This document shows positions 2 through 5,091 of a stretch of 5,610 nucleotides of DNA, piece after piece (within the stretch, counting starts at the first letter, position 1; the number at the start of each line of letters is the position of its first letter). Origin of the DNA: Candidatus Latescibacterota bacterium. GTDB taxonomy: Bacteria; JAAXHH01; JABIQT01. The stretch lies in NCBI GenBank assembly GCA_018667995.1, contig JABIQT010000100.1:1-5610 (forward strand), read 5' to 3'. The notes beneath the pieces are model-generated. The model had not been told where the DNA came from and searched no databases. It worked only from the letters and a program-made list of their open reading frames with translations. Made by a program: the position numbers and the translations under genes.

Positions 2-1123
2 ATGAGGCTGCCCTACTGTGATTCTGACATATCCCTCCATCTCAAATGCGGACCGGATCATCACGTTTCGTATAGCAAGTTGTCCCATCAACCAATTCGG
101 GCTGCCTGAAGGCTTTACAGGCATGAAATTGGTATCTGTTTGCACAGGCTCATGCCCTAGAGCCTCCAGTTCTCTGTGAAGGTACTCTCGGCCCTGTTTG
201 ACCATGTCCACGCAATAACGTACATGGGTCTGATCCCCCAAGGCCGCTATTGCAGCTTCGGTTGAAAGTGCGTTCTTTCGCATATCACCGATGTTGAACC
301 TGGTCAGGCGACGCAACAACCCAGGCTGGGCAACTCCGTATCCGACCCGTATTCCTGCGAGCCCGTACACCTTGGAGAAAGTACGCGCCACGATCAGGTT
401 GGGGAGTTCGTTGGTAAGTTGCATCATCGATCGGTATTCAGGGCCGGCAAATTCGATATAGGCCTCATCCACCAGCACAATAACGCTTTCCGGCACATTT
501 CTAATGAATGATTCAAGTGCGTCGGAATCGAGAATCTGTCCCGTGGGGTTATTTGGGTTACAGATATTTACCAGCCGCGTTTCGTTGTCGATGGCGGCAG
601 CCATGCCGTCCAGATCGAGGCCCCAGCCGTCAACAGTGGGAATTCGCTTGACGATGCCTCCAAGATTCGTGGTCCGTCCGGGGATGTCGAAATAGGAGGG
701 CCGCCCGGTTATCGTATTGCCTGAATGCTCGTAATATGCGGCAAGAGCGACAAGATTCAGAATCTCCGTGGAACCGCCTGAGGTCAGGATATGGCTCTCG
801 GAGATCCGGATATGAGCCGATATGGCTTCTTCCAGACGATCATGAAAAGGATATCTGTTCATTCCAAACATACGCTGTGAAACGGCTTCAATGGCCAGGC
901 GTGAAGCCCCAAAGGAGTTCTCGTTGAGCGACATCTGTACCCGATTGGGATCGTCGAGGCCGATGCCGTTGATAGACGGTTTCGGGCCGACTATTAAGTC
1001 AGAAGCTGCTTCCAACATACTCGATGCATTCAGAGCTACTGCGCCACCGCCTATAGCGGCTCCCCCCAATGTGAGCCCCCGCCTCAGGAATCCACGACGA
1101 TTCATTCGTTTTCTGTCAGACAT
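2..1123 (-). CDS. HisC-like PLP-dependent aminotransferase with Tat signal peptide (3' end cut by window edge)
   Basis: Reading the minus strand from the ATG at 1123 gives 374 codons without a stop before the left edge. The protein is a fold-type I aminotransferase, closest in motifs to histidinol-phosphate aminotransferase: SLNENSFG (65-72), TSGGSTEILNL (114-124), CNPNNPTG (188-195), VDEAYIEF (218-225) and TFSKVYGLAGIRVGY (248-262), with Lys251 as the expected PLP Schiff-base lysine and Arg368 in YVRITVG as the substrate-carboxylate arginine. By comparison with HisC, only about 20 residues should be missing. The N-terminus carries a twin-arginine signal: NRRGFLRRG (8-16), then a Gly/Ala-rich hydrophobic stretch to about residue 32 and a possible cleavage region near 36-41. 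The start is supported by AGAGGAGA eight bases or so upstream. Export makes a role in histidine synthesis unlikely, so hisC is not assigned. It is divergent from the first PhyH gene. The family is well supported, the substrate unknown. Confidence 0.9.
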   Translation of the reverse strand, partial: MSDRKRMNRRGFLRRGLTLGGAAIGGGAVALNASSMLEAASDLIVGPKPSINGIGLDDPNRVQMSLNENSFGASRLAIEAVSQRMFGMNRYPFHDRLEEAISAHIRISESHILTSGGSTEILNLVALAAYYEHSGNTITGRPSYFDIPGRTTNLGGIVKRIPTVDGWGLDLDGMAAAIDNETRLVNICNPNNPTGQILDSDALESFIRNVPESVIVLVDEAYIEFAGPEYRSMMQLTNELPNLIVARTFSKVYGLAGIRVGYGVAQPGLLRRLTRFNIGDMRKNALSTEAAIAALGDQTHVRYCVDMVKQGREYLHRELEALGHEPVQTDTNFMPVKPSGSPNWLMGQLAIRNVMIRSAFEMEGYVRITVGQPH

Positions 1124-1130
1124 AACAGGA

Positions 1131-1138
1131 TCTCCTCT
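1131..1138 (-). promoter_or_regulatory. Ribosome binding site of the Tat-aminotransferase
   Basis: On the minus strand this reads AGAGGAGA, with the AGGAG core eight bases before the ATG at 1123. It supports that start over the internal ATG six codons later, and so keeps the full charged region ahead of the twin arginines. Confidence 0.75.
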
Positions 1139-2317: not shown

Positions 2318-3106
2318 TCAGCTTGATGGGGGGATGTACTCGATCAGTTGTGCAAGGTGCTTCATCCGCTCCGTCGATGCAGACTCGAGGAGTGGAGCGA
2401 GGCCGTCACCGAATACCTCGGCTTTCGTATATCCATGCTGACTGATAATTTCCCGGAAAGCCTGAATGGACTGCACATCCCCATGGTGTTCTGTGTAGAC
2501 CATGGTGAACATCCTGCGCTTTGCGCCGCCGCCCCAAGCGCTGTGCTTGGTTGAATGGTTGAAAACCACGATATCACCAGGATCAGTCTCCAGAACTACA
2601 GACGGCACGTCGGCCCCATCGAGTCCGCCCCAGAACCCCTTCATCACAGACACTTGATCGTGGACATCTTCCGCAAAATTATCTCCAAATCTATGACTGC
2701 CCGGAATGACCCGCAACGCGCCGGTATCGTGTGTCATTGGATCAAGATATATGGCTATTTTGTAGAATCGAATCGGCTCGGGCCATGACGTGTCCGAGTG
2801 CCACGGGGTATCCCCCACATAGTAATTACCGTCGCTATTCCAGTACTGGTAATCTTCGCCCAAGAGCCCCGATGCGATACCATGAATGCGCTCGTCATCT
2901 AGTAGACTGCTCAGGTAGACACTGTGATTGAGACACGGTGCCATGCAGTAGCGCTCCTGTCCGCTGTGTGCCTGACTCCCGTGCTCCTGCATAAGTGCCT
3001 CGAAGGCTTTGTCGATCTCTTCAATCCGATCTGCAACCAGGTCTGGTAGCGACAGATATCCGAAGGTGTCCATGAATGCAATCTGCGCGTCAGTCAGTTT
3101 AAACAT
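2318..3106 (-). CDS. Phytanoyl-CoA dioxygenase (PhyH) family protein, copy 2
   Basis: A 262-residue PhyH-family Fe(II)/2-oxoglutarate oxygenase. It begins with the typical LTDAQIAFMDTFGYLSLPDL segment (4-23). His103 and Asp105 in PWHSDTSW, with His188 in NHSTKHSAWGGG, form the iron triad, and one of Arg197/Arg198 should bind 2-oxoglutarate. TGALRVIPGSHRFGDN (128-143) and TDPGDIVVFNH (174-184) are textbook family blocks. No signal peptide is present. It shares the N-terminal plan and a DERIHG block (71-76) with copy 3, suggesting a paralogous pair. The gene faces left, converging on copy 1 with 29 bases between stop codons, and has its own promoter candidate at 3144-3171. The Shine-Dalgarno region is only a GGGGG run before the ATG, weaker than that of its neighbours. 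The substrate is unknown. Confidence 0.93.
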   Translation of the reverse strand: MFKLTDAQIAFMDTFGYLSLPDLVADRIEEIDKAFEALMQEHGSQAHSGQERYCMAPCLNHSVYLSSLLDDERIHGIASGLLGEDYQYWNSDGNYYVGDTPWHSDTSWPEPIRFYKIAIYLDPMTHDTGALRVIPGSHRFGDNFAEDVHDQVSVMKGFWGGLDGADVPSVVLETDPGDIVVFNHSTKHSAWGGGAKRRMFTMVYTEHHGDVQSIQAFREIISQHGYTKAEVFGDGLAPLLESASTERMKHLAQLIEYIPPSS

Positions 3107-4326: not shown

Positions 4327-5091
4327 ATGCTCACAGAACAACAGCACGCCTTTTTTGATGCCTTCGGGTTCATTCATTTGAAGCAAGTTTTCTCTGCGAA
4401 GGAATTTGAAGAGATCACCAGCGAAGCAGATAAAATCTTCAAGCAGAATGCCGAGAAAAACCCGGAACGCTCATACCAGACCATCGTCGGGTTCGTAGAA
4501 CAGAATGCGATTCTGTCACGTCTCGCCGTCGACGAACGAATTCATGGCGTCATAGAGGAACTACTGGCCTCTGATTTCGTATGGGGCAACTCGGAAGGAA
4601 ACAAAGGAAGCTTTAATCAAGATCAGCTTCACAACTGGCACTGCGACCGCGTTGGGGAGTATGACATGCAATACGCCCGCCTCAAGGTTATGATCTACCT
4701 CACTCCTACCACAAGGGATGGCGGTGCCTTGCGCGTCATGCCGGGATCGCACCGGGCTCCGTTACATCAGGCTATGGTGCCACTAAATTCCCAGGGAGAC
4801 AATGCCAGTCAAACAGTCTTTGGCATTTCCGGCAGCGAAGTTCCCGGCTATCCACTCGAGTCGAACCCCGGAGACGTGGTTTTCTTCAACCACTATCTCT
4901 TTCACGCAGTCTATGGTAAGTCATCAACACGACGCTATATTACACTGAAGTATGCGGACAAGCCCACCAAACACGAACATTTTGAGTCGCTAAAACGCCA
5001 CTGTCAGGGCCAGGGATATCTTCATCAGGCAGCCCTAAGTAGTACAGATCCCAAAATGCAACGTATGCTGGCTCCATTGATAGGCACGTGA
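4327..5091 (+). CDS. Phytanoyl-CoA dioxygenase (PhyH) family protein, copy 3
   Basis: A 254-residue PhyH-family Fe(II)/2-oxoglutarate oxygenase. The N-terminus LTEQQHAFFDAFGFIHL (2-18) is the usual family opening. His105 and Asp107 in NWHCDRVGEYD, with His193 in NHYLFHAVYG, complete the iron triad, and Arg202 or Arg203 should bind 2-oxoglutarate. GGALRVMPGSHRAPLH (132-147) and SNPGDVVFFNHYLFH (179-193) are the core family blocks. DERIHG (69-74) and the following GNSEGN (87-92) parallel DERIHG and WNSDGN in copy 2, although the two differ at most other positions. No signal peptide is seen, so it should be cytosolic. It probably forms an operon with the CBM9-like gene upstream, and perhaps with the dehydrogenase downstream across a 249-base gap. 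The substrate is unknown. Confidence 0.93.
   Translation: MLTEQQHAFFDAFGFIHLKQVFSAKEFEEITSEADKIFKQNAEKNPERSYQTIVGFVEQNAILSRLAVDERIHGVIEELLASDFVWGNSEGNKGSFNQDQLHNWHCDRVGEYDMQYARLKVMIYLTPTTRDGGALRVMPGSHRAPLHQAMVPLNSQGDNASQTVFGISGSEVPGYPLESNPGDVVFFNHYLFHAVYGKSSTRRYITLKYADKPTKHEHFESLKRHCQGQGYLHQAALSSTDPKMQRMLAPLIGT

Follow-up and report, generated by a model that had tools for sequence, protein, structure and literature searches.

Transamination is commonly treated as cytosolic chemistry. Among the closest described systems is PtaA of P. fluorescens, a HisC-like periplasmic transaminase that is exported by Tat together with its PLP and converts the glutamate side chain of pyoverdine to 2-oxoglutarate; according to a review, PtaA is also found in species without pyoverdine (PMC6206403). 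PtaA, the only characterised periplasmic transaminase that we found, was described as surprising. PA2531 of P. aeruginosa, an annotated aminotransferase, has a Tat signal validated by an amidase reporter (PMC6085387). Here we describe a gene for a HisC-like fold-type I PLP enzyme that carries a predicted signal of the same type and is one of about 13 such paralogues in its genome.

Results

The window, by which we mean the whole stretch of 5610 bp analysed here, is an entire contig (G000:C759) from a draft genome of 6.06 Mb with 85% completeness. The translation of the aminotransferase gene (Table 1) begins MSDRKRMNRRGFLRRGLTLGGAAIGGGAVALNASSMLEAASD. Because the window is the whole contig, the reading frame is open at base 2, and alignment with orthologues, which run on, indicates that about 16 C-terminal residues are absent. 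ATG1 has a good ribosome-binding site, unlike the other candidate starts of this frame. The product matches Pfam Aminotran_1_2 (E 6e-40), the class I/II aminotransferases, in agreement with the preliminary description of a HisC-like aminotransferase.

Table 1. Coordinates of the aminotransferase gene, its functional elements and nearby genes (window positions unless a locus is given).
Feature	Position	Strand	Remarks
HisC-like PLP aminotransferase gene with predicted Tat signal	2..1123	-	3' end lost at contig edge
Ribosome-binding site AGAGGAG	1132..1138	-	8 nt upstream of ATG1
Predicted Tat signal peptide codons, residues 1 to ~41	1001..1123	-	sequence rule, conservation, low model pLDDT
Twin arginines Arg9-Arg10 of NRRGFLR	1094..1099	-	invariant in alignments
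Lys251, PLP Schiff-base lysine (E. coli HisC Lys214)	371..373	-	alignment
Arg367, carboxylate/phosphate-binding arginine (E. coli HisC Arg335)	23..25	-	alignment
PhyH dioxygenase genes	1494-2285; 2321-3106; 4327-5088	+; -; +	three in 5.6 kb
GGT near orthologue	G002:C1:421456-422967		hydrophobic leader
GGT divergently adjoining orthologue	L010 3193-4872		Acidobacteriota G039; hydrophobic leader

The first 15 residues of the product, MSDRKRMNRRGFLRR, are followed by an uncharged Gly/Ala-rich stretch, and the twin-arginine signal noted at the outset (NRRGFLRRG with this stretch) proved to be conserved, selected and rare by chance. The twin arginines were kept in 16 of 16 orthologues examined and are invariant both among 19 family members aligned at the N-terminus and in a full alignment of the window protein with seven orthologues. 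Orthologues lacking the N-terminal 40 residues, or a conserved start downstream of the twin arginines, either of which the preliminary description took as speaking against export, were not found in this search. For 12 sister-family orthologues, dN/dS was 0.29 for signal codons 1-27 compared to 0.15 for the core; the signal is thus translated and kept, its codons being under purifying selection. When the first 60 residues were shuffled, 18 of 20,000 permutations satisfied a strict Tat rule, a twin-arginine motif and then an uncharged run. Among about 290 other genes called in the loci, outside the family, one satisfied it, encoding a gluconate-dehydrogenase subunit 3. The search for a Tat translocase rested on TatC, which was present in all 15 genomes searched, with an E value of 3e-64 in the window's genome. 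The cleavage site can be placed approximately, near Ala-Ala-Ser 39-41, where orthologues have AAAQ. Export of the product by Tat is thus strongly predicted, and the earlier proposal that a folded, PLP-loaded enzyme is exported remains the best-supported reading of the sequence, with the signal in every orthologue.

A fold model of the window protein (alignment A4) reached a pLDDT of 86.9, with residues 1-32 almost all below 50 and most of the remainder at high confidence; an earlier model from 8 rows (pLDDT 47) was set aside. Two fold programs gave 3ly1 from Erwinia as the closest solved structure (Z 40.7 over 319 residues, 28% identity). Residues N157, D184, Y187, K214 and R335 of E. coli HisC correspond to N192, D219, Y222, K251 and R367 of the window protein, and the PLP residues are invariant over 36 relatives, E. 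coli HisC among them. Lys251 had therefore been assigned correctly in the preliminary description, whereas its arginine, given as residue 368, is residue 367. R322 of E. coli HisC is kept as R357 and Y20 has no clear counterpart in the window protein; both positions vary among paralogues.

The window protein does not reach the curated cut-off of any of the NCBIfam models that it matched best, including TIGR01141 hisC (276.55 bits), PRK09105 (NF006580; 444 bits) and PtaA (NF051461; 500 bits). Against TIGR01141 it scores 216.4 bits while about 16 residues short, and its full-length orthologues at L009 and L011 score 241 and 249 bits. A separate cytosolic HisC, encoded on contig C315 of the same genome, scores 322 bits. 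Because this HisC passes the cut-off and the window protein fails it, histidinol phosphate is an unlikely substrate, and a role in histidine synthesis appears unlikely from these model scores. PRK09105 gave 183 bits, aligned from window residue 8, and a Proteus mirabilis relative (L088) was also below its cut-off with 253 bits.

Copies were counted as profile matches starting before model position 10, the twin-arginine region, with paralogues taken as genome regions and the phylum represented by 16 genomes of a single order. All 16 contain several copies, from 5 to about 15, with 13 in the window's genome, 15 in G013, 9 in G002 and 5 in G001. Matches in 23 genomes outside the phylum were limited to the enzyme core, bar one weak match in G021; two Acidobacteriota genomes gave 4 and 7 matches. 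The relative behind the G021 match (L048 1351-2481) begins with a twin-arginine region, carries a lipobox-like LPAC and is possibly a Tat lipoprotein.

A tree of 44 rows was built on the enzyme core alone, with the signal columns excluded. One clade (support 98/97) holds 32 Tat-borne and 3 non-Tat sequences, with cytosolic HisC outside; all Tat-borne rows lie inside it. Members of the clade come also from Proteus mirabilis, Novosphingobium and Acidobacteriota, those of Proteus and Novosphingobium being Tat-borne. The Tat label needs three changes on this tree, such as a single gain with two losses. The window's genome and G002, which belongs to another family, share several subfamilies, and the amplification therefore predates the split of those families. 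One paralogue, L013 10576-11808 (-), has no twin arginines and an N-terminus resembling a Sec signal; a signal is absent from its sister (L013 16885-18015).

PhyH matches number 63-105 per genome across all 16 genomes of the phylum, and high PhyH abundance has been reported for Poribacteria (PMC3909097). To judge from this abundance and from its small size and single order, the phylum is possibly Poribacteria. With so many copies per genome, the mere presence of PhyH says little on function, and the neighbours in the window, three PhyH genes and a CBM9-like one, were not considered part of the system. The PhyH gene at 2321-3106 has an orthologue (63% identical) in G002, G006, G007 and G012, at a distance of about 13-18 kb from that of the aminotransferase. 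Genes common to the sister-family orthologue loci encode PhyH dioxygenases, Amidohydro_2, FmdA/AmdA, an amino acid permease, NIPSNAP, a class-V aminotransferase, HpcH aldolase, TenA and gamma-glutamyltranspeptidase (GGT). The neighbourhoods of the paralogues in G000 and G002 showed no single common partner. In two families of the phylum, a RelA/SpoT gene (L019 1094-3310 and L084 4299-6551) adjoins the gene of a Tat-borne aminotransferase, which belongs to one and the same subfamily in both.

In G002, G007 and G012 the distance between GGT and the aminotransferase orthologue is 7-8 kb, a proximity that is notable because each of these genomes has only two or three GGT genes; the three are close kin, and the linkage there counts as about one event. 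A second linkage, in Acidobacteriota (L010), is weakened as evidence because that genome has 12 GGT matches. Hydrophobic leaders at the N-termini of the GGT proteins, both at L010 and in the sister family, were recognised by eye. The window's genome has GGT genes on contigs C355 and C1162, and the window contig is too short for linkage to be seen; no GGT was seen in the L011 stretch. Near the G013 copy (L063), the GGT gene (G013:C107:7568-8062) looks degraded, its matches being confined to two short pieces apart from each other. The linkage to GGT, seen in two phyla, suggests that the amino donor is periplasmic glutamate.

Discussion

Combining these results, we consider the product to be a periplasmic, PtaA-like aminotransferase, PLP-dependent and of fold-type I, within a Tat-borne clade of HisC-like enzymes, with a probability of about 0.7. 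The steps with sequence support are a selected and translated Tat signal, an intact PLP site and a TatC gene, together with orthologues and ancient paralogues carrying the same signal and a separate cytosolic HisC. The protein would fold and take up PLP in the cytoplasm, cross the inner membrane in folded form through Tat and shed about 41 residues, and the mature enzyme would carry out ping-pong transamination in the periplasm. PLP would take up the amino group of an extracytoplasmic amino acid, and the PMP so formed would hand it on to a 2-oxo acid, or the cycle would run in the opposite direction. Glutamate freed by the exported GGT encoded near the orthologue would be the likeliest partner on the amino side, and the paralogues probably differ in substrate.

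Transaminase chemistry is likely, and it has to be weighed against a Tat-exported protein of the same fold that in practice is a decarboxylase, a lyase, a cyclodehydratase or an amino-acid-binding PLP protein. Decarboxylases and cyclodehydratases use this fold and these PLP residues, the product also matches threonine-phosphate decarboxylase, GntC and VioD models, CobD-type structures score near HisC (Z about 36.5 compared to 36 to 40), and the Arg322 and Tyr20 positions of E. coli HisC are among those that vary between paralogues. However, the best matches in both sequence and fold are aminotransferases and PtaA, the Tat relative that has been characterised, acts as a transaminase, making a non-transaminase unlikely.

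It is quite improbable that the enzyme is targeted to Tat and stays uncleaved, anchored in the membrane and facing the periplasm: the window protein has EAASD, an imperfect AxA site, but orthologues retain an AAA-like site beyond the hydrophobic stretch. An ordinary cytosolic HisC, or another aminotransferase with a mis-called start, would account for the HisC fold and the catalytic residues, and yet is very hard to reconcile with the good ribosome-binding site at ATG1, with a conserved and selected signal, and with a genome whose C315 protein passes the HisC cut-off that the window protein misses.

For the exported aminotransferase that we favour, the new element is the scale, namely, as read from the genomes compared, an old and diversified set of 5 to about 15 exported copies per genome. 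No description of this amplification or its age was found in the limited literature searched, which is not proof of novelty, nor any literature joining Poribacteria with aminotransferases and Tat. We propose only tentatively, with the odds against it, that these 5-15 exported aminotransferases form a periplasmic amino-group exchange layer in which GGT-released glutamate is the donor for the window's subfamily. If diverged exported copies have indeed been kept in such numbers since before the family split, extracytoplasmic amino-group transfer would be routine in these organisms, and there would be many proteins on which substrates and donors can be sought.

Compared with known systems, the window protein has the fold and PLP residues of HisC (TIGR01141), and differs from it in its export signal, its score below the cut-off and a genome with its own HisC. 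The PRK09105 (NF006580) model, for whose family we found no characterised function, likewise spans a twin-arginine N-terminus. PvdN of Pseudomonas, a Tat-exported PLP enzyme of what the preliminary description called a different family, stands as a precedent but is not the sole one. PA2531 resembles the window protein as an annotated aminotransferase with a Tat signal. PtaA, compared here through its NCBIfam model alone (163 bits over window residues 57-373, far under the cut-off of 500), is a HisC-like PLP enzyme exported by Tat with its cofactor, as we read the window protein to be, whereas the window's group has many copies per genome, and no link to pyoverdine was seen in its surroundings. 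The window gene thus belongs to a kind already known, and PtaA and PA2531 are closer precedents for it than PvdN.
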